The translations under genes were made by a program, and so were the position numbers. Positions 5,083-62,559 of a stretch of 64,000 bases of DNA are shown here, in pieces. Each line of letters opens with the position of its first letter. The stretch's first letter is position 1. This stretch comes from Polytrichum commune (taxonomy: Eukaryota; Streptophyta; Polytrichopsida; Polytrichales; Polytrichaceae), in the NCBI GenBank assembly GCA_950295325.1, contig OX485805.1, forward strand, positions 42,308,758 through 42,372,757. The letters run 5' to 3'. The notes beneath the pieces are model-generated. The model worked only from the letters and a program-made list of their open reading frames with translations, ran no database searches and had not been told where the DNA came from.

Positions 5083-5691
5083 TGGGCACTTTATATTAGG
5101 GCCCATTTCTAGGGCCCATTTCCAAACCCTAGGCATCAACCAATCAGAGTGCTTAGATTGCCCAAATGGGCCCTAATATGGGCCCAAGGGCTTTATATTG
5201 AGAGTCGGCCCACTTCTCCTAAAGCTTGCGTGGTGGGTGACATGGCGGCGTTTTGGAGGGAAAAAACCGGGCCGAAGGCAAAAAAATGAGTCGAGGGTTT
5301 ATGGAGACCCACTTCGCACCTACGGCCCACTTCACCCAACTTCCGTCATATAGTCATTTATGACTTTATGACTTTATGGTTCTATGACTTTATGACTTTA
5401 TGACTTTATGGTTCTATGACTTTATGACTTTATGACTTTAGTTCAAGCAAGGGCATAATTCATTTAAGCCCAAGTGGACCGTGGATTGGGCCTTACAATA
5501 TAAAGTCCCTAGGCCCATTTGGAAGGCCCACTTTAAAGTAGAATTTCCAATTTGGACCCTACAAGTGGGCCTATGGACTATATATTGCAAGGCCCACTCA
5601 ACGGCCCACTTTGTAAAGTAGGGCTAAAGTTAAGGCCCACTTAAGGTAGCAGTGGTCTCAACTCCAAATGGGCCCTAATATAAAGTGCCCC
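5083..5691. mobile_element. TTA-flanked MITE (Harbinger-like), copy 1
   Basis: The terminal inverted repeats are essentially perfect over more than 20 bp; the element ends in GCACTTTATATTAGGGCCCA, preceded by GGG or GGGG. It is flanked by the trinucleotide TTA on both sides (5080-5082 and 5692-5694). The interior is rich in GGCCCA-type motifs and contains a short tandem array of tatgacttta units around 5350-5440. A second copy at 15823-17722 has the same ends and the same TTA duplication. No transposase is encoded. The TTA target favours PIF/Harbinger, but the end sequence is not classical. Confidence 0.85.
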
Positions 5692-10506: not shown

Positions 10507-11301
10507 GGTCTAGGATACATGTCACTCAAGTAAAGTCATTCAATAACAAATACTGGATGAATCTACCAAGAGATTTGTATGGAGTTTCATTTAGTAAGCA
10601 CCTTCGAGTTGGCATGTAAGACGACTATGTCGCTTCTTAGCTATTGTGAAGCATTTGCTATTTCGTAAACAACAAATAAGTGGGAAGGGGCGACGAGGCA
10701 TGTGAGAGTAGAAAAAATGATTGATTGTAGTGAATGCATTTACATGAAAGAAGTATCATGATTATTTTTCAATGACAAATTCTAGGAACAAAATGTGATT
10801 GTCTAGGAGAGGAGAACCCAAATGCCATCCAAATAAATAAATTCAAATGTCATATCAAGGAGAAAAATGAGCAAGATGATTTTAGAAAACAAGATGATCA
10901 ATGGGATCTTAATAATGGACATACCACCGAAATAATTGAAACAAGTTGATCTCAAAAATTAAGAGCAGTAATAAAAGTTCAAGAATGAAGATATGCAAAT
11001 AAAACATCATAGAATAGGAAAAGTGGACATATTTTAAAAAGAGAATAGTGCACATGTGATAAGTATTATAGGGGATTGCTAGACACAAGAAAAAACAAAG
11101 TGATCTCAAAGAAATAAGTTTTCCTCTATAAAAACATTGAAGGTCTACTAGAAAATGTGAAATAAAACTTACAAAGAAGAAGAAAAAGAAGAAGATACTT
11201 TCATGATGAATAATAAAAAATAAGAAGAGTACGAAGATCCCATAAGAAAGGATGAAAAATCAATGTTTGCAAGATGAAGGGGTTGATTGTTTATCCCATC
11301 G
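10507..11301. mobile_element. Left part of a split Mutator-like element
   Basis: The start (GGTCTAGGATACATGTCACT) aligns with the left end of the complete element at 60562 (GGCAGGGGATTCGTGGCACT). The match continues for several hundred bases (CAAGTAAAGTCATT, then TTAGCTATT near 10640 and 60700, then AAGTATCATGAT near 10750 and 61622). It then stops at a foldback and LINE sequence. The probable right part is 28481-28883, on the far side of the LINE nest. Left flank TGCTTATAT and right flank CTCTTGTAT agree at 6 of 9 positions, so the target duplication is only suggestive. Confidence 0.55.
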
Positions 11302-11405
11302 TATGAGAGCATTTGTGTGAGATTTTAAAGGTTCCTTTGGGGAACTCCGTTGGAAAATAAGGGAACCCTCTGGGAACCTTCAAAATCCCACACAATGCTC
11401 TCATA
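11302..11405. mobile_element. Foldback MITE, 104 bp
   Basis: The left arm TATGAGAGCATTTGTGTGAG and the inverted right arm TATGAGAGCATTGTGTGGGA continue to match through GATTTT(A/G)AAGGTTCC, so nearly the whole element can form a hairpin. Superfamily is undetermined. Confidence 0.75.
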
Positions 11406-13434
11406 CAACCGGTTAAATTTCATTTCATTTCAAGGTTGGTCATCATATGGGGCTTGGTGTTGATGGCTAGTACCCTTGGTTCTACTGGTCAAGGAAAAAT
11501 GACGAAGGCGAGTAGAGCTTCGTAAAAATCGGGTGAGATCTGGTTTTCCAGGAAGATCACAAAAATGCAAAATTTATAGTGTACAATGATGTATCAATGA
11601 TCGACATTACTACCACGGGATTCTCTTGTGAATCGCACATCCAATGACACCCAACATTAGCTTGTCGGAGTTCTCAAGCCGCATCGTTTGGAGGCGGAAG
11701 GCAGCCAAAGCAATGGGTCGGACCACATCAATTGTGTCGATTGGAACCACAAACATGCAGCGAAGGAGCGGCCACGAATCGAGCAATGTCAGCCGATGCA
11801 ACATCAGGCCCCATGCGCACCTCTATACACCCACAATAGCAAACCACTTGCGTAGGTAGGAGAGATAACTCCTCCAAAACTAGCTGTAGGATCGTCTGAC
11901 TCATCCCAGATACTCACTTCCATACCCTTCATGCCACACCCACCAATCAATACAATGGACCACCCATCGCTTGACGATTTGGTGTTAGCAGCACCCACCC
12001 ACCAGGGTGCGTCGCGCAAACTGGTAGCAACGATTCCGGAGGCACTATTGGAAACTTTACGCTCCACCTGTGCAACCAAAGCAAAAGTATCATTACTAGG
12101 TATGATTCAAGGTAAGCACATTGGGCTCAAAGCTCTCATAGTTTGGGCCCGATAAACCCTTCACCCATCTCTTTCTCTCTATTATCCTAAAAAACTAATG
12201 ATTTGTTTGAGGTTATATACCTTCAAACAACCACAAGAAAAATTCACGCATTGACACAAGCTGGCCTTACGTGCAAAACGACTGCAATTCACTTCTCCAG
12301 GTGACGACCGCATTTTGATTCCAAAACACCACATGCAACAAACAAGTTTGACTACTCAGTTTGGGTACAAACAATAGATCTCTGCCAAATACTAAGGGAG
12401 GAAAGGTTCCTCACAATCATTGGCGAACATATTGGACAAGTGGTCTCCATTGACAACGTACTCGGAGGTGTACTGAGCCAAGCTCTTTGGACTGCACATT
12501 TGCCTCCTCGTCCGAGACCTAAACACGTTACCACACACGGTGGTTATCCCACAATTAGATGGAGATGGAAGGGTGGAGTACAACTTGGAATTCATTGGCA
12601 TGCCCAATCAATGTGGGCGTTGCCGCTCCCTAGACCATCAGGTGAAATACTGCCCAAAGAAAGTCCCCAATTTGAGCAAGAGGGATTTGTCAAACATGTA
12701 CATGGTAGTAGGAACATGAAAAGACGCACTGAAGATACCTGAGCCAATGGACACAATTGTCGAGCAAAATACGCATCCAATGACCCACCACAAGTAGGAC
12801 GCCATGACGAAGATCGTCGCAGAGTTGGGAGTAAGCATTGCCATAACACACACAGGGGATAAACCTCACACATAGATGCAAACACAAGCCCCATAGGTTA
12901 TTGACAACACTACCAACTCGATTCCAAAATCACATGCAATTGCACAACCACCAACTCCTGCTTGCAACCCTACACAAGTAGCTGATTTAACTTTAGAACC
13001 AGAGCCCAACCCGAACATCATCCCAACCTTCCAGCCACACAACACCAACTTTCCCAAACTACAGTCACATGTCTAGGAGGCCAAAGATAGTCATCTCAAC
13101 CAAGAGCCAATTCCACCAAGCCTAGCCACAACTCCAACCTTCATTTGGCTTTCTAAAACAACTTCGAAAGGATCATTGCCTGCCAAAAACTACACAAACA
13201 GGGGTAAGAACAAGGTTATACACACCGAATCAACTCCTATCACTAGACAAGGGTACTGAACATGTTGACTTGCAGAGGACCTTTGGTTCACCCTAGGTAT
13301 GGCCAACACACCCCAGTCCAACCCAAAAATGCTTAGGGGTATCCCCTTTCTTACAAAGGACTGACAATTTGATCAAGTCGGGTATTTGGTCAACATAAAT
13401 GTTTAGCCCTGCAATACAATATCAAATGTCCATA
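11406..13434 (+). pseudogene. LINE 5' region with degenerate ORF1 (DUF4283 / CCHC)
   Basis: About 12355-12470 translates to a DUF4283-like stretch containing REERFLTIIG and IGQVVSIDN. After a frameshift, the frame holds LVRDLNTLPHTVVIPQLDG and then a CX2CX4HX4C zinc knuckle at 12612-12653 (C-GR-C-RSLD-H-QVKY-C). This order is typical of ORF1 of plant L1-type LINEs, the RNA-binding protein of the retrotransposition particle. Stops and frameshifts run throughout, so it is dead. The 5' limit is not visible; 11580 is a rough guess, and 11406-11580 could be LINE leader or flank. The ORF1 tail is cut by the element at 13435. Confidence 0.7.
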
Positions 13435-14378
13435 TACCTTAGTTTAATAGCAGGTTCAGCACAAAATAATCATAAAAATAGATGCCTAAAATTTTGAAAT
13501 ATTATTGGCATTTTTTGCCGAATATAAAATTATTTATTTTTCAAAATTGCCGAAAAGTAAGAAATTTTTACTTCTCACTAAGTTTTACTTACAGTGGAAG
13601 AATATGTGAATTTTGAAGGAGAGAAGGTGCTCCTTTTGTAATCAAGCTCACTTACATTAGTCCACAAAGAATATGGGTTAAGAAGTAGCAAGACTCTAGG
13701 TGAGGCTTTTCAAATGTGTTGTACACAATTTTTTGGAGTCCAATTGAGCATAGAAGATGAAGTTTTATAGAATTTTGTCCAACTAACAAAAGTTGAGAAA
13801 TCAATCCTTCTTCCACCTCCAACAAGTTTGTGTCAAAATAAGTCTTAATGCAAAAGATATGGACAAAACATTGCAGCCGTGTAAAGATCAAAAAATTAAA
13901 ATGCGTTCATAACAGTTTTTCGGAGCTCATTTGTGCATAGAAGATCACTTTTTTGGAATTTTGTTGGTCTAAGAAAAGTTTAGAAATCAAGTAATCTTTC
14001 ACCTCCAACAAATTTGATGTCATTTGAAGACTCTATGCAAAAGTTATGCGTGTTATAAAAATGAAGTCTAACTAGGTGCTTCACCTCAAAGTTTACATAT
14101 CCCATATGCATTGTTGAACACAACTCCACTCTACTTGCATAAAGCACATAGCATTCTCAACTCTTCACTAACATCTTACTTGTCATTCAATGCAAGAGAG
14201 ATGTACAATATATAAGCTTAAATAGAAAATTAAAAATGAATTTAAGCTGAATTTTTAAAAATTAAAAGAGAAAATTGCCGAAAATATGAATATACTATTT
14301 AAAGGTGCCGAACCTACTTTTTGAACTTTAATTAAATATTAGGCAACAAGTTGCCGAACCTGCTAGTAAACTACGGTA
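13435..14378. mobile_element. Foldback element of 944 bp inside the LINE
   Basis: The left end TACCTTAGTTTAATAGCAGG and the inverse of the right end TACCGTAGTTTACTAGCAGG match over about 26 bp and continue as TTC(A/G)GCA. The interior has two diverged direct repeats of about 140-170 bp (13735-13870 and 13918-14050, both with the CACCTCCAACAA block) and several TTGCCGAA motifs near each end. No target duplication is certain and no protein is encoded. It separates LINE ORF1 from the LINE endonuclease. Confidence 0.65.
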
Positions 14379-15819
14379 GTTGAACTACCTGTTGGAATAC
14401 CATGGACAACAACCAGAGCAAGACAACATGTAGTAAACAATGTTTCGTAAACACTACATAAATTCTCATTTTCAGCAACAAATTGTCCAATCCCTTCCAT
14501 ATCTAGACCTAAGGTCGATGGTACGCACAACGGGCACGGGAGCATGAAGGGGAACACATCTGCACATTATTCATAAGTGTAGCCGTCCCATAACACAAAG
14601 TGAAAACCTAGGAAATGAACGAACTTGGGATGGTGCAGGGTACCAACATACATTACTCACCTCACATGAGATGGACGACATTCAAGCTGAAGCTATATGG
14701 CACTCCTAGTGGTAGAATATAGCAGGCAACTTGTCCAGCCCCAACACCACCTCCCAAGCTCCCTTAGAATCCCACAACTGGTTCGCAACCCTGATCAAGG
14801 AGGAAGTCCTCTCCGCCTTATAACTCTCTTATCATGAATGAAAGGTGACAAACTCACCATTGCAACCCAGAACACCCAAGGACTAGGCCAAGGATTATTA
14901 GGATGCAACAAACGCAAAGAGATCAAAAACCTCTTCAAACTCACCACAATAAGCACAACTATCCTTTTATTGCAGGAAACTAATTTACCTAAAGCAATTT
15001 GCCTCAAACAAACAACATTTATTGAATTCAGAGGAGGTTCCAACCTATGGAATGAAGGCTTCTTCTGTGCACGATGAGGAAGATTCAAGGGAGGAACCGA
15101 CACAGTTCTTTCCGAGCGAATGGCCTCCTCCGTCACCCACCATGGCATCATGTACCTAGGCAGAGCACAATCTGTCGTACTCAAACATAGCCCCCACTTC
15201 CAAATTGGTACCATCAACGTCTATGGTTTTAGCCATACTGGCCCACGTGCAATGTTGTGAAACCACCTGGCACACATTGAATTACCTGAGGCAAAATGGT
15301 TAATCATGGGGGACTTCAACAATATCGAACACCCTAGAGATAAACAAGGTGGTTCGACCAAAACAAACATTAATACGCGAGAATTGGAAACATGGAACAA
15401 ACTACTCACAAGGTTGGGAGTTAGGGATGCTTTTAACTTGGGAGCCTTCTTCCGGAAGTCAAACAATGTTTACACGTGAATGAATGCACACAATGATGAA
15501 ACAATGAGTCAATCAAGAATAGATTGGATATATGTCTTGGTCCACGTTGAAAGTATAGGGGGCATCACGGGGATCCTACCAACCTTACCGGATATATCCG
15601 ATCATGCGGGATTTATGAACGATAAAGGAACATGAAAACAAAACCGCCCTCCATTCAACCAAAAAAATTTCTTACCATCATGCCGATGCAAGACAACCTA
15701 TCGCTATCACTCAAATGTTGGACGGGGATAGACTCCTTTCCACTCAAGTGGAGTTGGAAGCACACATATTAACCTTCTACAAAAAGTTGTACACTAGGGA
15801 TGAATAGGTTGAAGACAAC
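14379..15819 (+). pseudogene. LINE ORF2, endonuclease domain (degenerate)
   Basis: The frame from 14838 gives an AP-endonuclease-like domain, which nicks target DNA to prime reverse transcription. Visible motifs are TIATQNTQGL at the start, LLLQET near 14970, TINVYG near 15210, MGDFNN near 15310, SRIDWIY near 15515 and SDH near 15600. These are the conserved blocks of the L1 endonuclease. Stop codons interrupt it (for example at 15075, 15260 and 15478). The reading continues past the MITE at 15823 into reverse transcriptase sequence at 17726. The part 14379-14837 shows no clear motif and is probably LINE linker. Confidence 0.8.
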
Positions 15820-16032
15820 TTAGGGGCACTTTATATTAGGGCCCATTTCCAAACCCTAGGCATCAACCAATGAGAGTGCTTAGATTGCCCAAATGGGCCC
15901 TAATATGGGCCCAAGGGCTTTATATTGAGAGTCGGCCCACTTCTCCTAAAGCTTACGTGGCGGGTGACATGGCGGTGTTTTGGAGGGAAAGAAATGGGCC
16001 GATGCCAAAAAATTGGGTCGAGGGTTTATGGA

Positions 16033-17376
16033 CAGGGGTGTTTTTTCACAAAGTTTTTACCCATCCACGTCCAAAAACCTCAAATTGAAAGGCAAAAAAA
16101 ATTTGCAACCCGTCTCAAAACCGGTAATTTCAAAACCAACCCGTCCATGGAAAGGTTAAAGAAAAAAACAACCTGTCCCAAAACCGGTAATTTCTAAACC
16201 AACCTGTCCATGAAAAGGTTAAAGAAAAAACAAATTGATAAAGATAACCCGAAAGATGTCGGCATGTGATTGGTTGCACTTGGAAACAATAGTATCTTCC
16301 TTCAATTCTGCTTTATTTATTTTAGCTGCCACCTACCCCATTTCGTCCACATAGACTAGTTCAGAGAAACAGACTCATATCCTTCACAACAGCTTGTTGT
16401 CTCCTTCATCATTTTCTCTCTGGTGGATGCATTGAATAACAAGTTTTTAGACTTAGGCATCTTCAATGCATGCAAGCTCTCTAGTCCCAATCTCTATCCA
16501 ACAAATGATGATGAGAGAACTCGTATTACTGAAGAGTGGTTGGAAAGGTTGTTTGTGAAGTTTCAGACTTCTAAAGAAAAACAAGATCGGTGTCAGGGTG
16601 AGTGTTTGGAGATGGTGGAGACCATGAGAGAGATGATCCCAAATAAGTTTTTATTTGAAGCTTGGGAGTTTGCATGTACCACTCCAGAGTGGTCAATCAA
16701 TTGGTCTGGTTTGAGTAACTTGTGGAGAACAGTTATGGTGATTCCAGTGAGCACTGCAATATGTGAGAGGGGTTTCTCTAAACAAAACCTTATCAAAAGT
16801 CATTTACGTACTAGGTTGAAATTAGAAACTTTAGATGCTTTGATGCGCATTTCATGTGCAAATATTATAGTTGAAAACATCAATTGGAATGCAGTGATGC
16901 TTGTTTGGAGAAACACAAAGGATAGGAGAATTCATCCACTTCTTTAAAGGGTAAGTAGCTATTTGTTTTTAAATTTTTGAACATATTTATATATAATACT
17001 TCATATTCAATTACTAAGTTTACCTTCAATTATAATCTTTGACATTATGTTAAAAAGGTTCTAAATTTTGTGATTGATGAATTAATGTATGCAGGTGAAT
17101 CATGCACTTCAAGATTGATATTTTGATTGGGTATTAGTGGTTTGATTGCATTATGCTTATAGTCACATGTCATATATGACATAATGTAATTGATATTTGT
17201 ACCATTTATTTTTTAAGGATTTTTTATATTTAAAAATGTTATTTTTAGAACCCGTCCAAAGTGAATTTGACATGTCCCAAAACCGGTTCATTTTCTAAGA
17301 ACCCGTCCACTGGAAATTTGTTTTTTTATGAACATGTCCCTAGACATGTTAGGGACCTTGTGAAAAATCACCACTG
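16033..17376. mobile_element. hAT element derivative, copy 1
   Basis: The left end CAGGGGTGTTTTTTCACAAA and the inverse of the right end CAGTGGTGATTTTTCACAAG pair well. A perfect 8-bp duplication TTTATGGA lies at 16025-16032 and 17377-17384. Repeated CCCGTCC / AAAACCGGT motifs fill the subterminal zones. It keeps only the C-terminal part of a hAT transposase (16423-16947), so it is a deletion derivative. A related copy is at 34982-36088. It is nested in the TTA MITE. Confidence 0.93.
16423..16947 (+). pseudogene. hAT transposase C-terminal fragment
   Basis: The open frame of 174 codons ends in the hAT dimerisation region. Recognisable blocks are PVSTAICERGFS, KSHLRTRLKLETLDALMRI and WRNTKDRRIHPLL, resembling the hAT families that also gave rise to ZNF862-like genes. 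The catalytic DDE core and the BED finger are absent, so it cannot transpose. The start methionine is just the first ATG of the open stretch. The frame is intact to its natural stop, and its last 55 codons are also kept open in the second copy (to 35656). Confidence 0.85.
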
Positions 17377-17725
17377 TTTATGGAGACCCACTTTGCACCT
17401 TCGGCCCACTTCACCCAACTTCCGTCATATAGTCATTTATGACTTTATGACTTTATGACTTTATGACTTTAGTTCAAGCAAGGGCATAATTCATTTAAGC
17501 CCAAGCGGGCCGTGGATTGGGCCTTACAATATAAAGCCCCTAGGCCCATTTGGAAGGCCCACTTTAAAGTAGAATTTCCAATTTGGGCCCTACAAGTGGG
17601 CCTATGGACTTTATATTGCAAGGCCCACTCTACGGCCCACTTTGTAAAGTAGGGCTAAAGTTAAGGCCCACTTCAACTCCAAATGGGCCCAACTCCAAAT
17701 GGGCCCTAATATAAAGTGCCCCTTA

Positions 17726-18562
17726 GTTGCACAAAATGACTGCCCCCAACACATTAAGCATATGGTGGGACCAAGGACCACAATGTTGATCTTCTACATC
17801 CTCTCACCATGGAGAAAGTGTCCAATGCCATAAAAGAACTCCCAGTAGGCAAATCACCAGGTGTGGATTCCATACCAGTAGTGTTTTACCAGGAGAGGTG
17901 GGAAGACATCGAGTTTGATATCTTCAACTTTGTATAGGAATCGATCAACCAATCCTTCCTCACCGAGGAACTTAATGTTAGTAAAATTGCACTACTACCC
18001 AAATCACAGGACATACTTTGGATTCAAAACTTTAGACCTATTTCACTGCTTAACACAATGTACAGAATAATTGCCAAAGTCTATGCCAATAGAATGAAAC
18101 CATTTTTACATAATTGAATACTATTGTCCCAAACAAGATTCATCCCGAATAGATGCATCCTTGATAATATATTCCTTGCATTTGAAGCCATTGAATGGAC
18201 ACATGAAAACAATCAAGATCTTAACATGCTATTCTTAGACTTGAAAAAACATATCACAGGGTGAATTGGACCTTCCTACGCCAAACTATGGAGCAGATGG
18301 GATTTCACCTCACGTGGATCAATCAAGTGATGTTGCTGAACGAGAACGCCTCAACCTTAATCATTGTAAACGGTGAGCAGTCTAAAACTTTTCACCTCCA
18401 ACGTTCAGTGAGATAAGGTTGCCCGTTTGTTCCATACCTCTTCCTAACTCACAGTGGACGTCCTCGGACAATTGTAACAACACTCGAGGTGCGGAGTTCA
18501 AATGCCTCCGCCTACCTAACAACACAACAATTACTAAACAAATGTTTGTTGATGACACAATC
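17726..18562 (+). pseudogene. LINE ORF2, reverse transcriptase part 1
   Basis: The frame contains KSPGVDSIPVVFYQ, NFRPISLLNTMYRIIAK, and the catalytic FVDD at 18545-18556. The block around LEKTYHRVNW near 18240 carries a one-base frameshift, and stops occur at about 17938 and 18115. This is the palm and fingers of a plant L1-type reverse transcriptase. The copia element begins two codons after FVDD (18563), and the LINE continues at 25986. Confidence 0.88.
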
Positions 18563-18960
18563 TGTTAAGAGTGAGGAAACCATGTGCATAATGAAACAGA
18601 GTAACGGTGCTAACTCAAACTCTTGAATTATTTTGATCAAAGGGGGAACTGCCCTTATATACAATCTAGCTCGACACTTGGACTAGGTCCAAGTGTCGGC
18701 ACCTGGCTACACCGTGGACTAGCTACTTCGGTGGGAATATTCTAGCTCGGCCTCGGTCTTATATACCAAGATTGAGGCCCTTAACTAATTGTTTGCTCAT
18801 AAGTTGAGATACCTTGGACTTGTGTGCACGGCCTCCTACCGGCGGCCGCCACTTTACTTAAGGTGGCTAATGCCCATGTGAGACTAATTAATACCGATTA
18901 GCTTCCATGCTAGATGACGGTTAACCTAGGTTGCATAGGTGCTTATCCATTATCTTAACA
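18563..18960 (-). repeat. Copia 3' LTR
   Basis: It is 398 bp long and ends in TGTTAAG and CTTAACA. It is the 3' LTR because the coding strand is minus. By eye it differs from the other LTR at 14 of 398 positions (3.5%), 12 of them transitions. Confidence 0.95.
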
Positions 18961-18975
18961 CTCCTCCTCAACCTA
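18961..18975 (-). promoter_or_regulatory. Copia polypurine tract
   Basis: On the minus strand TTGAGGAGGAG lies directly against the 3' LTR start. This is the expected plus-strand primer of an LTR retrotransposon. Confidence 0.75.
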
Positions 18976-20917
18976 AGATTAACCTCATTAAAAATTTCTC
19001 AAATAAAACCCATTGCGGGATAAAACCTTGAGGAAGAAAATAGTGATAATCTTTCGGTGAGTCTAGTTCTTGGAGTGACCTCATCCCGGCGGCATCTAAC
19101 AACTTCTTATGCTTATATGCCGGGAAAGCTTTGGTAAACATATCGGCAATGTTGTGCTCCGATTCTATCTTTCTAATTTCAAGTTGATCCTTGCTAATCA
19201 AGTCTTGAGAGAAATTAAAGATATGTGGATTAATGTGTTTAGTCCGGTCGGCTTTGATGAAGCCCGAGGACATTTGTTGTATACAGGCTGCATTGTCCTC
19301 GAAGATGATCATTGGTTTCTCCTCCTCCTGGATTTAACATTGTTGTCATATGATCTTCTCGATGGTTCGTAGCCAAACACTCTCATGGGCCGCTTCGTGG
19401 AAGGCCAGCAACTCGGCATGATTTGTCGATATTGCGGTCACGGTCTGTTTCATGGATTTCCACAAGATGGGTGCTCCGCATTTAAGGAAGATGTATCCCG
19501 TTTGTGATTTCCCGGCGTTCGGGTCGGTTCGGAAACCTGAATCTGCAAAACCTATCACCTCGGTTTTGTTAGTTCTTTGATAGTATAATCCGAGGTCGGA
19601 TGTACCTCGTAGGTACCTCAGCAGGTGCTTGACCCCGTTCCAATGTCGCATCGTTGGATTTTGGCTATGCCTAGCCAATATGCTCGTTGCGAATGCGATG
19701 TCGGGTCTTGTGTGAGTTGTGAGGTAGGTGAATGAACCAACCGCGGTGAGGTACTTCTGTTTGTCTATTACCTCCTCCTCCTCCTCACGAGGTTGGTACG
19801 GGTCTTCATTCGTCTTGCTCCGGCCGATCATTGGCGCAGCCAATGGGTTGGCGTCCTCCATCTAAAACATTTTGAGTACTTTCTACACGTATGTCTGTTG
19901 GTGTAAGAATATGCCGTTCGGCATATGGTGGACTTGAAATCCGAGGCAAAATATAGTTGGTCCAAGGCATTTCATGTCGAACTTGCTTGTTAGAATGTCT
20001 TGAGCATATTTGCACATCTCGGGATTCCCGATGATGTTCAAATCATCTACATATGCGGCAATGATTACAAAACCATGCTTAGTGCAATATGTAAAAATGC
20101 AAGGTAAGGTAAAGTTGTGTACAAAACCTTGTGATACCAAAAAGTTGCAAAGATGGTGGCACCAGGCTCGGCCTGATTGCTTAAGGCCGTAGAGGGCCTT
20201 ACATATCCTCAAGCCCACAAACCGTCCCGGTTTGGGCTTAGAAACGGATTCTAGGAATCCGGGTGGGGGGTTGATGTGTAGGATTGAATCCAATGTACTA
20301 TGGAGGTATGCGGTTACCACATCCAGTAGATATATCTTTAGAGCAAGATGAATTGTTAGTGCCAGTAGGTACCTAAAGGAGACACAGTCCATCACAAGTG
20401 AGTACGTTTGGTCAAAATCAACTTCGGGTCTTTGAGTGCAACCTTGGGCTACTAGCCTTACCTTATACCTTAGGACTCGAGTTTTCGGGTGAAGATTAGC
20501 TTGTGGCCGATTGGTGGCTTCTCAAGGTCATCCGCAATGTCCGAGAATACCTCGTGTTTCCGAAAAGAGGTATATTCGGCTTCTATGGCCGATTGCCACT
20601 GAGGCCAATCCTTCCTCTTCCTAGCTTGGTTTAAGGTAGTTGGATCGGTGTTGGGACTCGAGTCTAAGGACTCGATAGTGTAATGAACCTTGAGTGTCTG
20701 TTTGGGTGTCCATTTGGTAGGTGGTTTGGTAGGTGGGTGTTTGTTAGGGAGGATGTTGCTGGTGCCAGGGATGGCACCTCGAATCACCCTTTCCTCGGTT
20801 GAGAATCCGTCGGGCACGTTTTTGGCTAAGGCCTTGAGGTTTAGAAGCTTAGATGTCTCGGTGTTGGTTAACGATGTAGGTGGGTCTGGATTCATGGTTA
20901 ACGTCTCCGGTGCACCA
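18968..20917 (-). pseudogene. Copia pol: reverse transcriptase and RNase H
   Basis: RVT_2-type reverse transcriptase is seen with DVVTAYLHSTLDS, INPPPGF and the catalytic YVDDLN (near 20055). RNase H follows with GFADSGF, TNHAELLAFHEAA and FEDNAACI, which carry the three expected acidic residues. The frame is broken by a frameshift near 20470, stops at 19883 and 19865, and further stops just below 19346. The terminal tail runs to a stop at 18968. Upstream it is separated from integrase by the solo LTR. Confidence 0.92.
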
Positions 20918-20922
20918 AAGTT

Positions 20923-22375
20923 TGTGAGGCCAAACCCCCCACCCTTAAGCGTCCGTAGTCCGAGTAGTGGGTTTGGGCTCACATTCCTCCGCGGTATTGG
21001 ATTTGGACTTGGATGAGTCCATAGTGCAAGGTTCACCCTTCAAGTGGTCTTGGATTTAACTAGCTCCTTCATAAACCCAGCTCCTTCATAAACCCAGCTT
21101 CTTAGCTTCTAACTAAACAAACCCAGCTCCTTCATAAACCCAGCTCCTTCATAAACCCACAACTTTGTAGTTGTAATCCCCAACTACCTCACTAATTATT
21201 CAAGCCCTTAACTAATCTTCCTACCTAATTTCCCTAATTCTACTAACAACCCCTTTCTAATCACACAATTCTTCTCTAATCCTAAAATCCTAAAATCCTA
21301 GAGAGGAGAGGGGGAGAGAGAATTTCCTAACTTCACTAAGACTAACTAATCCACACAAGTATATTTTTGCACTCATCACAACATCAAGTGCTCAACTCTT
21401 AAACATGGAACTTGCAACCACGTGTATTCAAAACATGAACTTTAAGTACCACAAATTGGAATCATGAATTAACTTTAAAATCCTTCACGTCAACACTAAT
21501 TCTACCAAGAGGTCAAGCCCTCTTCAAGGCTAACAAGCCTTGGCTCTCAAACTAAAAACTAAGCACACACATGTGCTCCAATATGGCTTCCCACACCCAC
21601 ACTTATAACTCGTGGGGTGCCTTGGAGCACAAAGGAAAGAGAGGATGAGTGAGGGAAGAATGAGGGATTATATAGTAAGCTTGAGGGGGTGAGCACCCTC
21701 AAGGCTCACGATAAGCCCTTGAGATTTCCTCCTACTTAGTAGGCGCCAATCCTATCTTCTAAGCCTTCCTCCCTCAAATGATCAACAAGGATCCTAATTC
21801 GAACATTTAACTAGCCTTGGCTTTCTACCTACCACACTTTACCAAACTTGGGATGCTTCAACCCAAACTTAGCCTCCTTCGCTTTCCGCCGCCATAACTT
21901 TCTCCCCTTACTTTTCCAAATCGTCGCTCACCACTTAATTCAAACCACGATGCTTAACTCGTGATTTGATTGGTGCTTTGAGAATTTGCTTATCCTCCAC
22001 CTTGCATTCTTCCTTGGGCCTTCCCCATTAAGTGGCCATGATGAGGTGGTCCACTTGTGCGCTCCATGTGATCCTCCATTCATCCCAATTCGAATGCACT
22101 TGCCTCTTGAGTCACTTTGGTTGTCTCCATCCATTTGTACTAGCCTACTCACTAACTACTCAATCCAAGTTCTCCTTACCTATCCTCATTCACTCAAATC
22201 CTTCCGAAGGTAAAAACACAATAACAACTCACATCCTAGCCTCTTACAACATGGTACTTCTAAGACTAACATTTCACTCTTTTTATATTTTTGTGAAGTA
22301 ACATGCTACTTCAAAGTGCATCAACTAACGTTTCAAGGGTCTAAGACTAAATGTGGGCACCCTTTTGGGCTCACA
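20923..22375. mobile_element. Solo LTR (copy A) inserted in the copia element
   Basis: The insert begins TGTGAGGCC and ends GGGCTCACA, with a perfect 5-bp duplication AAGTT at 20918-20922 and 22376-22380. Copia coding sequence stops at one edge and resumes at the other. About 21505-21855 is closely similar to 30205-30545 in copy B. Near 21060-21165 a short AGCTCCTTCATAAACCC unit is repeated about five times. No internal retrotransposon domain or second LTR is present, so a solo LTR, probably of a Gypsy or unclassified element, is the best reading. Confidence 0.85.
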
Positions 22376-22380
22376 AAGTT

Positions 22381-23913
22381 CAAAGGTGAGCTTGGCTTGT
22401 TTGAGGATAGTGTCGGGAATACTTGCTCTAGGAACTTACAGTTAGCGAATCGGGCTTTAAGGAGGTTCCCGGTTGCGGGTTCTAGATATCTGATTATCGA
22501 GGATGAATCGTATCCAACATAGATTCCCTCGTGTCTTTGTGGGCCTATTTTGTGCCGTTTTGGGTCCGGGAGAGGGACCCAAACTTGGCAACCAAAGGTT
22601 CTGATATGGGCCACATTTGGTGGCCTTCCGGATAGGAGTTCGTGAGGTGTTTGTGTGTTGAGGAGGGTGGGTCGTAACTTAAGGAAGGCCGCGGCGTGGA
22701 AGACCGCATGGCCCCACATATTGGGTGGTAATCGGGAATGTAGTAACAAAGGTCTTGCTACTAGTTGGATTTTCTTCACAAATGCCTCTGCGAGGCCATT
22801 TTGTGAGTGTTCGTAAGGTACTGAGTAGGTTAGGTTGATCCCAGAGGCGTTACAATAGTCCTCGAAAGCGTGAGATCAGAATTCCTGGGCATTGTCCATC
22901 CTTAGGTGCTTAATCGGGTTGTCAGGGAAGTGGTTTTTGTACCTGATAAGGATGGATAAGAGTTTTGGGAAGGCTAGGTTTCGGGTCGGGAGTAAGGCGA
23001 CCTCGAGGTGGCTTCCCGATGCGTCCACAAGTACGAAGTAGTAGCGAAAGGTCCCTGAAGGTGGGCTTATTGGCCCGCGTATATCCCCGTGTATCCTGAA
23101 TAGTGGTGGAGGTAGTTCCGTGGGTAGTGTCCAATGTAATGGCCTCCGGATTAGTTTTCCTTGGATACAGGCTACGCATTCTAGTGTCTTCCCGGCGTCT
23201 ACCGTTGTAAGGGCGTGACCTTGGGTCAATGGGATCATCCTCCGGAATATGGTCGTTCCCGAATGTCCCAGTCTAGAATGCCAAATATTTGGCTTGGCGG
23301 CTTTAGTGTCTATAGACACCCCCTGCGCCAGGTTGCGCTCTGTCGTGGGACCTCTCTCCCACGCGGCTATGCAAACCTCTTCCTCACCTAGGGTGGGGCT
23401 AGATGCCAAGGGTTTTATGGCAACCTTGTAAAGTCCATCGAGGCCCGCGTTAGCGGTGGCAATGACCTGGGGTCCTTGCCTAAGCTCAATTACTTCTTCA
23501 TCGCCTTGCATCGCCGTGTAGAGGTGGATATTCCTCGCCCTCAGATCACGATAGTTGATCAGGCTCCTCGGCGCATCTGGGGCGTACATTGCCTTCTCGC
23601 AATTGAGGGGGAATCCCCCGGGCAAGATAATTGTTGCCCGGCCCTCCCGGAACCTTAGCGTCCGGCTTCCGGCCATTGTAAGTATTTTACAAGTGGACCA
23701 GGACTTCTCACTTTGGAAGTGGAAGAATTGTGCCTTAATTAGGATTGTGTGAGTTGATGCGCTATCCAGGAGGGCAACATCTTGGGTTGACGTGCCTCCT
23801 TCCCGGATAGCCATAAAATTTTCCACATCAAAATCAAGATCGGGCATGTCTGAGGGTTCAAAGTTGTAATTCTGCCTTGGTTTATTACGTAGCTCTTGCA
23901 ATTCCCTGAACAT
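22381..23913 (-). pseudogene. Copia pol: protease and integrase
   Basis: The protease motif LLDSASTHTI is near 23770. The integrase HHCC finger (WHSRLGHSG ... CVACIQGK) lies around 23275-23160, followed by the catalytic core with HGDIRGP (first D), LRMDNAQEF (second D) and NGLAEAF (E). A stop directly after AQEF (22876) interrupts the core. The C-terminal integrase part (FGCQVWVPL) runs to the solo LTR insertion. Confidence 0.92.
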
Positions 23914-24999
23914 ATCTACAATATACTGTGATGCCCTACAATCCTTTGCAAAATGTCATTTTCTCCCACATTTGTGACAATTTCCCGAGGTTGTCCTAGC
24001 ATGTTCCTGCTTAGGTGGGAAGTATCTAGGTCTGTGTGGGTTCCTTGTTGTAGGTTTATTATGCCATTGAGGTGGAGTTTTGCGAAAAGAACCTCTTGGT
24101 GGCCTACGGGAGGCCTCTGTAGTGTGAACTTCCGCGTGGTGGTGAACTGGTGAGTCGTCCCGCCGCGGTCCCGCTCCCGGTCCGGCTCTGGCTCCGCGCG
24201 TTGCTCCCGCTCCGCGTCCCGTCCCCGGCATCGGTGCGAGTGCTCCCGTGGTTCCGTTTAGCTCCTCCGGCTCGACGTCCTCAATCTTGGCGATGGTCGT
24301 ATGCACCTCCCTCGCTGGTCGGGACTCCGCGTTTCGTAGCAGGATTTGGTGATGCTTCTCGGCGAGCAATAGGTGATACATGAGCTTCGAGTGCTTCTTA
24401 AACTTCATATTCATGTATTGTTGTGAGATGATGGCCATTGCAGGTGGGAATGTCGAGAGGGTCTTCTCGATTAGCTCCTCGTCCGTGATGACTTGCCCGC
24501 ACAACCGAAGTTGAGCTGTAATCCGGTGCAGCTCCGAGTTGAATGCAGCGAAGTCCGGGAAATCGAGTACTCGGATGTTGGTCCAGTCCGCTCGAGCTTG
24601 TGGCAGGAACAACGTCTATTCGTGGTCAAACCGGGCGTGAAGTTCCGCCCATAGCTCGGCGGGGTCCTCGATCTGCAAGTATTGAAGTCGTAATGCATGG
24701 TCGAGGTGGCGTCGAAGTATCATCAGTGTATGCCATTTGGCTGCTGGCGGGATCGGTGGTGTGTCGTCCGTTGGGGTGGTACTTGTGCTTGGAGGTGGTG
24801 ATGTTAGAGTCTTGGCGAGGTCCTCAGCACTCAGTAACACTTTAACATCGTTAACCCATTCTAAGAAGTTTGACCCGTCGGAACTCAGAGGTGCAAACAT
24901 TAAGGCATGCATTTTGGATTCCGTAAATCTAGGTTTTGTAGACATTGATATTATGGTGTGTATGTCATCAGTTGATGAAGTAAACATCTGTGAAATCAA
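23914..24999 (-). pseudogene. Copia gag with zinc knuckle (interrupted)
   Basis: It opens at 24999 and has DGSNFLEW, typical of UBN2-type copia gag. The nucleocapsid zinc knuckle near 23940-23970 reads C-HK-C-GRK-stop-H-FAKD-C, so a TGA replaces the usual glycine. A second nonsense codon (TAG) lies at 24616-24618. Both lie in the same frame as pol, so the element used one continuous gag-pol frame. An Arg/Gly/Pro-rich stretch near 24180-24260 precedes the knuckle. Confidence 0.9.
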
Positions 25000-25005
25000 A
25001 CACTA

Positions 25006-25587
25006 GTAACACATGCCAGTGTCTACTCCTTAGTTTAGGTAGAAGAGCTTAAAACAGATTGGTTAGAATCTCAAAGTGGAAGTTTCCAAGTAAATTTCGG
25101 CAGCATAACATTTCTGAGGGTGGAAAATTCAGAGAAAAGAATCTGTAGCGTAACTTTTCTTGTGACTTGGTAAAAGCAGGAGGTATATCTGATTTGCTAC
25201 TAATTATTGGACAGTAGTTCGGTATTGTAACAATGTATGACTTTTCTACATGAAAATCTGGGGAAAAATTTGGCAGCACTTCGGTACTATCACAACTATC
25301 CAAAATGTGAAAAATGGGATAAAAAAGATAGTAATGCTTTCAAATATAGTAGCTGTCATGGAATGACAAAGAGCTATATCTGATCCTAGACAAACTGTGC
25401 TTTCTAATAGTAGTCCAATGGTAAAACTATCTGTCTAGTAGTAAAAATGACTTTCTGATGCCTTAAACAAGCTAAACATGCATGTCTATCTAGTGATCTC
25501 TTAAAAGTGACCACTCAAGTGTTCTCAAAGGTGATTGACTAACAATCTAAAGTGAACAATGAGGTGCTAGGAGCAGTGATGATAACG
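25006..25587 (-). other. Copia leader between 5' LTR and gag
   Basis: This stretch lies between the 5' LTR and the gag start and has no open frame. Directly next to the LTR, the minus strand reads CGTTATCATCACTGC. It is not the usual plant match to initiator methionine tRNA (TGGTATCAGAGC), so the primer tRNA is uncertain. Confidence 0.7.
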
Positions 25588-25985
25588 TGTTAAGAATGAG
25601 GAAACCAGGTGCATAATGAAACAGAGTAACGGTGCTAACTCAAACTCTTGAACTATCTTAATCAAAGGGGGAACTGCCCTTATATACAATCTGGCTCGAC
25701 ACTTGGACTAGGTCCAAGTGTCGGCACCTGGTTACACCGTGGACTAGCTACCTCGGTGGAAATATTCTAGCTCGGCCTCGGTCTCCTATACCAAGACCGA
25801 GGCCCTTAACTAATTGTTTGCTCATAAGTTGAGATACCTTGGACTTGTGTGCACGGCCTCCTACCGGCGGCCGCCACTTTACTTAAGGTGGCTAATGCCC
25901 ATGTGGGACTAATTAATACCGATTAGCTTCCATGCTAGATGACGGTTAACCTAGGTTGCATAGGTGCTTATCCATTATCTTAACA
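25588..25985 (-). repeat. Copia 5' LTR
   Basis: It has the same length and ends as 18563-18960. As the 5' LTR it should carry the element promoter; a TATATAC-like stretch is present near 25680, but transcription start is not provable from sequence. Confidence 0.95.
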
Positions 25986-28480
25986 TGATCCTACTCCTAG
26001 ATGGAACTCATGATTATTTGGATAGGGCCCTCAATGTCATCAACCGTTTTGGGGCAAAGTGAAACTTGCATAAATCAATAGGATTATGGTTATCCCAAAC
26101 GGCACGAGCATGGCAATGGGGTGAAGAGGTTGTGCTCAACTGGTTAGCCCTAAGTGAGGTTACAATATATCTAGGCTATTCATTTGGATTAAACATTGTA
26201 CAAAAAAAAAAGACGACAAGATGCTAAGTTAAAATAGAAAACACCTTCTCCGATGGTCGGGGAATAAACTTCCCTAGTGAGATGAATAATGGTCTCAAAC
26301 TAGATAGTACTTTCTTCAATTTGGTACTTGGCATCTTGCACCGACCTCTCCGGCAAAACACTCAAGTTGGCAAGGGCAACAATTCAAAACTACATGTGGT
26401 CCAGCAAACAAGAATCATGTGCAAGGGCAAGTGTTAAATGGGCCACCGCCATCTTACCCATAACGCGAGGTGGGGTAAAAATCCTAAACCCCAAATGCCA
26501 GGCCTCAACACTTCTGGTGAAACTATTCATTCGAGGTTTGTTAGTGGGGTATGAACCTTGGAAGGTACTAGTTCGATACATAGTGGCTCAAACCAAGCAG
26601 TCACGACGAGGAAGGTGGCCAACTCACGCAAACTAGATCATGAACGCCCCACACCTGGTGAAACAAGGCTCCTCAATGTGGCAAGGGGTTGTGAAGGCCT
26701 GGAGCACCATCCAATCAGGATTGGAGCAACAAGACCCCACAAGCTAGTAAAAAATTGCGAGGCAACCCCTCTTTGGTAATTACTTTCTCACCAACAAAAT
26801 CGGGGTACAATGGGGCACTAAACTACGTTCAAACATGAAATGGTGGTCAAAAAATGACTTCAAATCCCTCAAAGACATTGTCAGACCTAACGGCTATGGT
26901 TGGAGAGCATTCGCCAAACTCCTACATCTAAGAAAGAAACGAGTGTCACCCCACCACTTTACACTTGGGTCGTTAACAATATCCCCTAGGACGCAGGACC
27001 ATGCCCACACCATCCGTTGGTTAGTGGTTAGCAACAGAAGAGGACAGGTGAATACAAACAATTTACCACTTCCAAAACACAACACCGATGGAAGCTCAAA
27101 ATTACCAAAATAAAAGTACAAAAATGCTCAAGCTCCTTGATCAATGACAATCATTATTAGTCGAGCCACCATATCACATCTCATTTGCTACATTGTACAA
27201 TCATCTTAGGGACCTTGCGCAGAGAAATGAGGCGCCATCCAATGTTGATCGACAACCCCACATCTTCCCGGATTGCCCGATGCTAATGAATCACGCGGTT
27301 GTTAAGTAGTCTCCGCTTGGTCACTATAAGGTTTCTCTTGCTCTTGACGTAGGACCCAACCCATACAGGTTCGTGTAGAGACGCCTTGGGTTTTTTGAAA
27401 CCATGCTTGAAGGAAATCTTATTTTGGAGATTAACGCCACTCTACAAGAATCGGAGGACAGTTGGAGGCAAGCAAGGTCTTTGCCCAACGAAGCATCGAC
27501 CTCCTCTATGGAGCCTTCTTTCGCGTTTTCCAAAGCTGACAATCTTTGTGGCTTCCGGGCCAAGGGCCACCCCACCATTGGTGCTCTCCTTGGTGTGTAT
27601 TGATGGGCTACGTACCAATCTCGACAATGTTTGTTTCAACTTTGAGACGGCCTTTGATCCTTAGAGCCTCAACATATTGGACACGTATGATTAGAGGGCT
27701 TGGTGTCTGGCCCTAAGCTCCCCAATCTGTTGATCACTCAAGATTCCACCCTCCTTCCCTGCCACTGAGAACTTCCGTCCCAAGGATTTATCCTTCGGCA
27801 TGTTATCTTTTCAAAAGGTTTTTGTGGGGTGTTGATCATCAAGGCTTCGTTTCCTGGTCTTGACACCTTTCCCCCTACGCCTTTCCCCCTTCGATGCTCC
27901 CTGAATGCTCATGTGTTTGCTTGGAGGCACTTCTTCTTCCTGTATGCCACCTCGAGGCAATTTGCACCGACTCCTTGACGCGTCAGATGACCATTCCGGC
28001 ATGCCTTGCTCCGCATTGGGAACCCCCCTGCCATCTGGCGCTCCGGCTTCGCCCTGCCTTTCTTCCTCCAAGCCGTTGGACTGGTGGATGGTCTCAACTG
28101 TTGTTGGCGGGAAGTTTCGCCCCTCCTCGGGGCCCCACATGGCCATCTTCTCTCCCACCCTTGTTTTTTGTTCTTTGCTTCTCTTTGCGGTTTGGTTTTG
28201 TTCTTTTAGTCTTTGCAACCTTAGTACTACTCCGCCTGCGGCAACCCGTTGGGATTGGTTGTTGGGTTGCCACATCTGGCCCTGATTCGGCCTAACTTCC
28301 CTTCTGTTTTGGTTGGGAAGTCCGGGACCGGTGGTCCCCTCGGGGAATTGTAATTTTTTACCTCTTTTTAAACCTCGGTGAGGTCTTCACAATACCCTTG
28401 GTTCTACCTTTTAGAAGGAAGAGGGAGGAGTTCAAACCACCCCATTGGCATCATCTCCTCCACATGTTTTTTTTAATGAA
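25986..28480 (+). pseudogene. LINE ORF2, C-terminal part and 3' tail
   Basis: The reading frame of the LINE resumes with LLLDGTHDYLDRALNVINRF right after the copia LTR. Further on are LARATIQNYMWSS, GGVKILNPKCQ and KVLVRYIVAQTK, which are typical of the LINE thumb and linker. Later frames around 26840-27110 and 27400-27600 continue in a degenerate way. A GC-richer segment (27.8-28.3 kb) has long open frames on both strands but no motif. The 3' end is not sharp; T/A-rich sequence near 28466-28495 is a plausible tail. Confidence 0.75.
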
Positions 28481-28883
28481 GGACTTAATTTTAAAATTTT
28501 CATCCAAGATTTGCGAGTGGATGGAGGTGTAGATTTCATCCAATGTAAAGTTTTTCAAGCTCTACTTGAGATGAAGAAGAGCTAGAAGCTAGGGCAGCAT
28601 AGGAGCCTTTAGATCTGTTAGATCACACTCAATGGCCGAGATCTTCTTGGTTGCCGACCACACGGAAGGTGTTCACAATGCCTCAATGATGCAGATCAAC
28701 AACCTAGTGTGCTTAGATTTATTTAGAATTTGCCCACATGGATGTATATTATTTTGCTTGAGACATGAGATCATTGTATTACCTACATTGCTTGTAATAA
28801 AATTGGCATTATCATCGATGAGATGAAAGCGAATGAAGAAAACTATAGCTATAAAAATACTTCATTGCCACGAATCCTTGGCC
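28481..28883. mobile_element. Right part of the split Mutator-like element
   Basis: About 28690-28883 matches 62365-62559 at the right end of the complete element at 60562-62559. Shared blocks are CAACAACCTAGTGTG, AAAATTGGCA/AAAATTAGCA and AAAATACTT, ending GCCACGAATCCTTGGCC versus CCATGAATCCCCAACC. With 10507-11301 it would make one element of about 1.2 kb split by the LINE nest. Confidence 0.55.
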
Positions 28884-29039
28884 CTCTTGTATAATTAGGG
28901 TGAATTTCTATGTACACCACTCGCCCATCATATTATAGTGGGAATAAGGACAAACTCACCCAAATGTTGGATGGAATTTGATGGGGTAGGGTTTGTATGT
29001 GCCCATTAGATACTCTCATCTTCTAAAATTTAGGCCCAC
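28884..29039 (-). repeat. Inverted copy of the 31.0-kb repeat (delta), left piece
   Basis: About 28900-29035 is the reverse complement of 31050-31160 and of 50810-50925 (shared GGGAATAAGGACAAACTCA and GGAATTTGATGGGGTAGGG). It is interrupted by solo LTR copy B and resumes at 30718-30766. Confidence 0.7.
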
Positions 29040-60561: not shown

Positions 60562-62559
60562 GGCAGGGGATTCGTGGCACTCAAGTAAAGTCATTTGGTA
60601 ACAAGATCTGGATGAGTTTATCAAGAGGGTCAGATAGAGCTTAGTTTAGTTGAATGCCTTTGAGTTGGCGCATAAGATCTCTTGTCCCCTCTTAGCTATT
60701 ATTGAGTTCTTGCTATACTGTGAAATCGCAAATAGGTGGCATAGAACCATGATGTGGTTTGAGGATGCTCTAGCCTTATTATCTAACCTCGTGCAAGTTG
60801 TCATCAAGGCCATGATGTGACAATTGATTCCACAAATCTATTTTGATTAATAATGTAGGTGTTCACGTGTGTAACATGTGGCAAGTCACTATAATGTGTT
60901 GTTACAACCAACTTTTATTTTGATTAATCCATCACTTATATTGCACAAGTGAAAATTATAGTTTCTAATATGTCAAATGAGAATATATTTTATTATAATA
61001 ACATAAATCATTATAAATACATGTCTATCTTAATATATTAGTATGTTGATGTTGTGCAATTGTTTTTTGATGAGAAAAATATCAAAATAAAAGAAGCACA
61101 ATGATATAAAGAGGTAAAGACATGATTGTATTTTATTTCAACAAATGTATCATTCGATTTTTTTATTCATTTAAATTCATTGAAATAAGTTTCACTTGTC
61201 AATTTTTTATTTTTTATTTCAAAATATGCAACATGATTATATCATTAAACAGTTGTAAAAATCAACCATGATGGATCATATTATCATACATCTATGGATA
61301 GGACATATTCAAAAATTTCAAACTTTTTGACGATACCTTATCTATCTATCTATCTATCTATCTAGCTAGCTAGCTATCCATATATCAAGTAGATAAGAAT
61401 ATTTGTTCATGATATCTTCCATTAGGTGCATTTCAATGATAACTTCATGTTTCTCACGTAGATTAGAGTCTTTTGTGATTATCAGAAAAATTAAGTTCAT
61501 GAATAATGATGTTATTTTGTTTAAGATAAGGTATACTTAGGTAAATTTTCACCCAAAAAATCCATCTTTGCTACTCATGAAAGTAATAAAGATGGTACAT
61601 TGGTTGCATTCAGTTAAATGAAGTATCATGATAGTTTTCAAACATACAAAATAAAAACACACTATGATTGTAAGTTATAAGATGAAATAAAAGATTACCT
61701 CAAAATAAGAAGGTGAAAGGTATTAGCAAAGAGAGAGTTGAAGAAGATGAGGAAATGTTCTTCAGAATAAGAGAAGAATAGTGTTATTAAGAGGAAAGAC
61801 CATCAAGGCCATTTTCATGAAGAAAATATTACCAAATTAAGTGAAGCAATGGATCTCAAACCAAAAAATGAAGTAATTTTGAAGTAGAAAGAGAGACATG
61901 AAAAAGGCATTATGAATAGGAGTAGCAAAACCAATTTAGATAAAGAACAAATATAGTGCACGATATATAACAAGAGCAAGATGATCTCAAAGGAAAAAAA
62001 ATGACATTAAGAAATCAAAATGCAAAAAGCAAAATAAGGACAAAAACATGGAGCATATGAAGGTCTACAAATTGAGAAACAAAACACTTGAAAAAAACAA
62101 GATGCAAGTAACAAGAAGATCTTTGATGTGTAAATTAAAATGAAAAATAATGCACTATCAATGAAAAACGATAGCAAAAAACTAGAAGAACGTGAAGATC
62201 TTAGAATAAAGAAGAATGATGAAGAAGTGGAGCAAAGCTTGGGCATGTCAATCACAACGAGGAAGGGAAGGAAAACAAAATCTCATAAGTAGTTCATGGG
62301 GGATGTGAAGAAGCAAGGATGTGGAGGGTCCTACAAGGCCTCAAGTTGGCAAGTTTGCAACATCAACAACCTAGTGTGCCAGCTTAGATAATTTTAGATT
62401 TTTCCATTAGGCATAAATTACTATCCCACATTAGACAAGGAACCATCTTATTGCTTATAGCTTAAATTGTTTAAAACAAAATTAGCAATATCATTGACAA
62501 GATGAAAGCACATGAGCACTCTAGTGATGAAAATACTTGAGGTCCATGAATCCCCAACC
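60562..62559. mobile_element. Mutator-like element, 2.0 kb, non-autonomous
   Basis: The ends GGCAGGGGATTCGTGG and, inverted, GGTTGGGGATTCATGG pair, and a perfect 10-bp duplication GTTAATATTT flanks them (60552-60561 and 62560-62569). The interior is very AT-rich and has no transposase frame. Parts match 10507-11301 and 28690-28883, and the terminal sequence is shared with the 249-bp MITE at 47988. The target length of 9-10 bp and the GG-start ends favour Mutator. Confidence 0.82.
61338..61380. repeat. TATC / TAGC microsatellite
   Basis: About seven TATC units run into three CTAG units. It lies inside the Mutator-like element. Confidence 0.95.

Follow-up and report, generated by a model that had tools for sequence, protein, structure and literature searches.

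Plant L1 elements are usually seen as poly(A)-tailed long interspersed nuclear elements (LINEs) with little target choice. Retrotransposons without long terminal repeats (non-LTR elements) that target transfer RNA (tRNA) genes are already known. The NeSL-related elements NeSL-1_TV, LIN15_SM and LIN25_SM are specific for tRNA-Pro, tRNA-Arg and tRNA-Glu genes, respectively (Kojima and Jurka 2015, PMC4640811), and the dictyostelid TRE5/TRE3 and NLTR elements choose tRNA genes in a compact genome, inserting ~50 bp upstream, ~100 bp downstream or 2-6 bp upstream and not inside the gene (PMC5006619). In flowering plants nearly every L1 terminates in poly(A), and the maize/sorghum ME1 'stringent' L1 lineage has a 3'-terminal hairpin (Ohshima 2013, PMC3747384); no mention of 'tRNA gene' as a target was found in the excerpted text of that paper on 3' stem-loop plant L1s. 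R2 is inserted inside a multicopy RNA gene, the 28S ribosomal DNA, and depends on co-transcription with it (PMC3414825). Here we describe an L1-type LINE from a nest of transposons around positions 10507-28883 of a 64,000-nucleotide stretch of the Polytrichum commune genome (C3:42308758-42372757; this whole stretch is termed the window). It is, in our judgment, highly probable that the nest has the corrected order given below and that the LINE belongs to an apurinic/apyrimidinic endonuclease (APE)-type L1 family preferring tRNA genes, with the window copy seated on a decoy. Neither a plant L1 inserting inside tRNA genes nor an APE-type plant L1 inside several isoacceptors was found among the entries listed by searches of the open-access literature.

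The nest is a real serial stack in which a Mutator-like element (MULE) contains an element termed X, X contains the LINE, and the LINE contains a foldback element, a TTA-flanked miniature inverted-repeat transposable element (MITE) that hosts a hAT element, and a copia element that hosts a solo long terminal repeat (LTR). The LINE had been taken for an ordinary L1 in the initial annotation; its family was found to home to tRNA genes. Like the NeSL-related and dictyostelid elements, it is a non-LTR element that chooses tRNA genes. The NeSL-related elements, however, belong to the restriction-like-endonuclease group and are listed for one isoacceptor each, whereas this LINE is APE-type and L1-like and occurs in several isoacceptors; the dictyostelid elements, in contrast, stay outside the gene. 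With ME1 it shares the L1 clade and the 3'-terminal hairpin, unlike the poly(A) ending of most flowering-plant L1s. As with R2, insertion is inside a multicopy RNA gene, and co-transcription with the host gene may also apply to the LINE; it differs from R2 in its endonuclease, its reverse transcriptase clade and the gene invaded.

The window LINE's own pieces were too decayed for good domain scores; relatives were used for classification. The Exo_endo_phos domain was clear in one relative (L118, E 6.6e-9) and below the cut-off in another (L014, 0.0013); among the relatives Exo_endo_phos and zf-RVT exceeded Pfam's cut-off and DUF4283 fell below it. The reverse transcriptase of L014 matched the LINE-1 ORF2 protein (E 9e-22) and one chain named RNA-directed DNA polymerase (5e-22), with R2 reaching 0.009; its endonuclease piece had no match among solved structures up to E 0.1. 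By these domain matches the LINE is L1-like and APE-type, the domain in L118 not being of the restriction-like type seen in NeSL and R2. Target-site duplications (TSDs) were of variable length, as in L1s (15/15 bp in the window and others elsewhere), and copies ended in CACA(A) right before the target instead of in the poly(A) usual in flowering plants.

The terminal 22 bases at the LINE 3' end were searched for throughout the genome (407.8 Mb) with up to 3 mismatches (<=3), and all matching places, the window included, were inspected. The tail pattern gave 69 matches, compared to 2 for a reversed control, at 68 loci (one with two matches). The common 3' end is a hairpin without poly(A), and no A run followed the LINE end in any of the 68 loci, copies having been chosen by that ending. 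A strict B-box was present <=70 nt downstream in 17 of the 68 loci, one of which (L019) sits in X, and in 12/58 after merging of similar flanks. Controls yielded 0/68 upstream and 0/58 at +100-170 (58 loci being long enough), with a background of 0.115% estimated on 20,000 stretches drawn at random from L001-L011 and the window. A looser T-arm test detected 20/68 against a background of 4.4%, and GTA occupied positions +1..+3 of the flank in 27/68 against about 1.2% in the window. Recognisable tRNA 3' halves followed the LINE end in 13/68 loci and comprised eight of Gly-GCC type, three Lys, one Glu (L038) and one (L131) which we take to be Pro. Eight more flanks consisted of four tRNA-derived-looking repeats and four other B-box sequences, and two junctions lay in X. 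Copies were found inside or beside tRNA genes above chance, as expected of a tRNA-gene-targeting non-LTR element.

Four insertions consisted of ~20-34 bp of the LINE 3' end with 14-21 bp duplications (L018, L045, L051 and L052), and an A|GTA-like site was visible in most of them. One locus (L049, C6:28115794-28116204) contained two tandem LINE tail units with ATAAAAGCAAACATTAC after each, as if one had landed beside the other.

Joining of the flanks without the LINE produced sequences recognised by ARAGORN as tRNA genes in seven loci: four Gly-GCC, one Glu-CTC and two Lys-CTT (Table 1). Five of the paired tRNA-site copies had a duplication and rejoined to one tRNA. When 10 flank pairs were joined, three gave a tRNA, five had a duplication and no tRNA, one had no duplication (L080/L061) and one proved to be a wrong pairing (L081/L019). 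A scan of 70 rows for duplications detected 11, of which two (L032 and L116, the same locus) gave a tRNA. Halves cut at the junction were also subjected to a truncation-aware Rfam scan, in which RF00005 was detected on 8 of 20 hand-picked halves, with E values from 2.3e-4 to 5.1. In terms of the tRNA model, the five 3' halves started at position 21 for Glu and at 25 for Lys and Gly, and the three 5' halves ended at 31-32, so that the duplication falls at the anticodon-stem base. A cmscan of whole loci found little, with 3/60 sources above the tRNA gathering score (L032, L048 and L038); the match in L038 starts within the tail of the LINE, and re-examination (L132) did not recover the 5' half that the L048 match would imply.

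In plants, introns are known chiefly from the tRNA genes for Tyr and elongator Met. In this genome, 12 of 15 exact-pattern places for tRNA-Gly(GCC), with inserts of <=12 nt allowed, carried an insert of 11-12 nt after position 37, which ARAGORN called an intron in the genes at L113 107-188 and L114 110-191. Another locus (L112, C3:50005500-50008200) contained two intronless tRNA-Gly genes on the + strand, 1.83 kb apart; between these, on the - strand, lies a fragment that matches the endonuclease region of the LINE.

At the 5' side, 34 loci including the window were examined; 22 could be scored and the 12 without the LINE 5' motif were left unscored. An A-box was located <=110 nt upstream of the LINE start in 11 of the 22 loci, compared to 0/22 at -330..-220 and a background of 1.3%. 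By eye, the 5' tRNA halves resembled Gly-GCC, Gly-CCC, Pro, Val, Ser, Gln, Leu, Trp and Glu, where all isoacceptor names except Gly-GCC, Lys-CTT and Glu-CTC are our presumption. The conserved motif did not locate the LINE 5' ends of L047, L053, L057 and L030; the 5' sides of L053 and L057 were instead resolved through tRNA-Lys halves. At sites that are not tRNA genes, a donor tRNA piece was detected between the duplication and the LINE, Gly-CCC-like in three pairs (L076/L028, L078/L026 and L079/L046). A further non-tRNA site (L085/L128) had an 8-nt leader followed by a tRNA-Trp-like 5' half and then a Pro-like piece. Inside a tRNA-Glu gene, L118 carried three stacked Glu anticodon-arm pieces, and L083 had a Gln-like half and then a Leu-like half. 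The donor 5' pieces carried into non-tRNA insertions suggest, at the level of sequence, that transcription of the LINE begins within the tRNA gene it had invaded, or a few bases before it.

The window copy lies in X and not in a tRNA gene. A perfect 15/15-bp TSD (TACCCTTGGTTCTAC), absent from the initial annotation, was found at 11471-11485 and 28393-28407. Positions 11250-11485 and 28393-28694 form one uninterrupted high-copy repeat in six X copies (L006-L011), which lack the LINE and run straight through the insertion site; because the TSD lies inside this repeat, the LINE entered X. Three X copies (L008, L010 and L011) exhibited inverted ends (..GTCACTGAGG../..CCTCAGTGAC..) and, by our own reading, flanking repeats of ~9 bp matching at 7, 8 and 8 of 9 positions. 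On this sequence comparison X is a separate, high-copy, non-autonomous DNA transposon and is neither MULE nor LINE. An origin of X from a tRNA was considered and dropped, as an Rfam scan of X gave no support. X does carry TAGTACCCT, the same nine bases as the core of the tRNA-Gly(GCC) site, and the second LINE tail in an X copy (L019) occupies the homologous site (133 identities in a 177-column flank alignment). The window LINE is thus read as off target, in a tRNA-Gly-like decoy.

Several explanations of this distribution were weighed. If the LINE recognised only a short motif (TAGTACCC-like), tRNA-Gly genes would be hit for containing it and the other tRNA cases would be coincidence. Flanks starting with [GA]TACCC numbered 10/68 and comprised seven tRNA-Gly sites, two in X (the window copy and L019) and L124, as such a preference would produce. 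However, the Lys (GCAAGG), Glu (GGATAC) and Pro-like (GTATGATT) sites have no TAGTACCC-like motif, Lys and Glu genes are cut at similar tRNA positions, and the 5' flanks hold several other tRNA-like halves; a short motif on its own is, in our view, unlikely. The tRNA pieces might instead be part of the element, in a composite tRNA-LINE-tRNA unit, which fits with the many copies carrying a tRNA piece at the 5' end. Against a composite, the 3' flanks vary (Gly, Lys, Glu, Pro-like and non-tRNA) while the LINE 3' end is constant, and the five duplicated pairs each rejoin to one tRNA, making such a unit very improbable. The initial annotation made the MULE the immediate host of the LINE, leaving out X. 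MULE parts do flank everything and are adjacent, in keeping with that model. It can hardly be credited, however, now that the sequence on either side of the LINE, TSD included, belongs to a repeat that is contiguous elsewhere and missing at the junction point from the aligned MULE relatives (L001, L002, L003 and L005).

The preference for tRNA genes has itself to be set against a number of observations. The majority of the 68 junctions were not in a recognisable tRNA gene, the four tail-only insertions had their TSDs in non-tRNA sites, and five of the 10 joined pairs were duplicated without yielding a tRNA (L078/L026, L079/L046, L082/L070, L076/L028 and L092/L027). Just 8 of the 20 hand-picked halves scored as tRNA, with E values as high as 5.1, and the window LINE has no A-box or tRNA piece at its own 5' end. 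One Gly pairing (L088/L017) is assumed across about 32 kb. The Lys cases L053 and L057 had little or no duplication and shared, by blastn, solely the 3' tail with the window LINE, L057 also having one weak protein match to it (E 0.002), and an intact tRNA-Lys gene was located near L053. These cases are, therefore, weaker, and recombination between tRNA genes is possible there. Finally, transcription from the tRNA gene is our inference from 5' ends, and the way in which tRNA genes are recognised is likewise inferred.

With tRNA-gene preference as the favoured reading, the LINE would use target-primed reverse transcription, a mechanism carried over from known L1s, to enter (T)A|GTA-like sites, with a preference for tRNA genes at the point where the anticodon stem begins (model positions ~21-32). 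The 3' hairpin, instead of poly(A), may be what marks its RNA for recognition, and the invaded tRNA gene would probably supply a promoter or 5' end. We consider the chances evenly balanced that tRNA genes provide this plant L1 lineage with insertion sites and promoters alike, each jump carrying the 5' half of the last host's tRNA, so that the 5' leader is a stacked record of targets (e.g., in L085, L118 and L083). If the preference is true, a hairpin-tailed L1 in several tRNA isoacceptors would represent an independent origin of tRNA-gene targeting and a natural test of how APE-type endonucleases acquire specificity. The family also suggests a route by which a LINE could borrow a host promoter.

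The nest itself is ordinary and is now better resolved. A multi-layer nest with a readable order, as initially proposed, was borne out by TSDs, empty sites in relatives and LINE colinearity; the direct step from MULE to LINE was wrong, and both boundaries given for it (11301 and 28481) had been misplaced, as 11250-11485 and 28393-28694 are X. Recognition of this missed layer and of the perfect LINE duplication corrects the timeline, and the earlier count of seven elements in four levels becomes eight in five (MULE, X, LINE, MITE or copia, hAT or solo LTR). The events ran from X into the MULE and the LINE into X, to the foldback, MITE and copia into the LINE, the hAT into the MITE and the young LTR into copia (Table 1).

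Table 1. Features of the nest in window coordinates and empty sites that rejoin into tRNA genes
Feature	Position or loci	Strand	Evidence
Non-autonomous MULE, left part, terminal repeat ~185 bp	10507..11249	+	Alignment with L001, L002, L003, L005 and window 60562-62559
Same MULE, right part, begins ATCAACAACC as in relatives	28695..28883	+	Alignment with relatives
X, left part, own left end lost, includes LINE TSD copy 11471-11485	11250..11485	+	Homologous to and contiguous with 28393-28694 in L006-L011
X, right part to terminus, includes LINE TSD copy 28393-28407	28393..28694	+	Sequence comparison with X copies
L1-type LINE plus the elements nested in it; 3' terminus ACCTC-GGT-GAGGT-CTTCACA(A) without poly(A)	11486..28392	+	15/15 TSD; 3' end common to relatives; colinear pieces
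LINE endonuclease-domain remnant	14838..15632	+	tblastn to relatives; Exo_endo_phos weak, E 0.077
First part of LINE reverse transcriptase, interrupted by copia behind an FVDDT motif (by eye)	17758..18562	+	RVT_1 E 6.2e-4, under Pfam cut-off
LINE coding sequence after copia, start overlaps 5-bp TSD copy	25986..27110	+	80% identical to C2 relative
Foldback, 940 bp, TA/TA flanks 13435-13436, 14377-14378	13437..14376	.	Terminal inverted repeats 24/27; empty site in L012
MITE hosting hAT, TTA/TTA at 15820-15822, 17723-17725	15823..17722	.	Duplication; empty site in LINE L014
hAT, TSD TTTATGGA at 16025-16032, 17377-17384	16033..17376	+	Dimer_Tnp_hAT E 5.7e-6; empty site in related MITE
Copia remnant, LTRs 18563-18960 and 25588-25985, TSD CAATC/TGATC	18563..25985	-	RVT_2, gag_pre-integrs, SH3_retrovirus; empty site in L012
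Solo LTR inside copia, TSD AAGTT at 20918-20922, 22376-22380	20923..22375	.	99.2-99.5% to L133-L138 over 21073-22375
Empty-site tRNA Gly-GCC	L071/L013, L077/L020, L088/L017, L032		ARAGORN; three of four with 11-nt intron
Empty-site tRNA Glu-CTC	L118/L038		ARAGORN
Empty-site tRNA Lys-CTT	L053, L057		ARAGORN

The LINE pieces belong to one family, as had been supposed, since all match one LINE on C2 (C2:12713455-12726272) in the same order and on the same strand. The matching pieces were 11515-13439, 14383-15604, 18304-18559, 25991-27167 and 27256-28391, with identities of 69-81%. Coding sequence does resume after copia, the piece at 25986-27110 adjoining the pre-copia piece in this relative, and the foldback and copia sites are empty there. 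The C2 LINE has inserts of its own of ~946 bp (L012 1529-2475) and ~5.7 kb (C2:12719452-12725180); the former was considered as a copy of the foldback and rejected.

The two MULE parts aligned in order with the run at 60562-62559 and with related elements, in which they are adjacent and do not overlap, as the initial annotation required. Approximately 130-155 bp of MULE sequence were absent at their junction, as judged from L001 and L003, indicating that a deletion accompanied or followed insertion; the last ~15 bp of the left part (to 11249) are ambiguous between MULE and X. Other copies have the long terminal inverted repeats in common with this MULE: the ~185-bp end repeat occurs in many of them, and the right end is complementary to the left by eye. 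The 9-bp TSD of the MULE was weak by eye (6/9 had been matched initially), and one search with joined flanks for the empty site detected no place with both sides. A separate high-copy repeat (~28893-29037) starts within ~10 bp of the MULE right end.

The initially described junctions of the remaining layers (TTA, TTTATGGA, AAGTT and CAATC/TGATC) all hold. The foldback, described as 944 bp, has an empty site in L012; its size is 940 bp, to which TA/TA adds up to 944. The hAT assignment was supported by an 8-bp TSD present twice and a hAT dimerisation domain (PF05699), and a related MITE elsewhere in the window (~5200-5400) has the insertion site cleanly empty. Copia had LTRs, RVT_2 and a TSD, although the latter matches at 3/5 positions. 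Its LTRs differed at 14/398 sites (K 0.036), which, with substitution rates that we assume, would correspond to an age of roughly 1.4-2.6 million years.

Of the dated layers the solo LTR is the youngest, because it was 99.2-99.5% identical to six copies and a 521-bp part (21380-21900) was 100% identical at the 40 places scored among 1372 candidates; judged from these identities, it is the product of a very recent burst. A window self-match (21431-21845) was rejected as the extent of this LTR, as L133-L138 show 20923-22375 with AAGTT. Several of those 40 places occurred in pairs ~9.4 kb apart.

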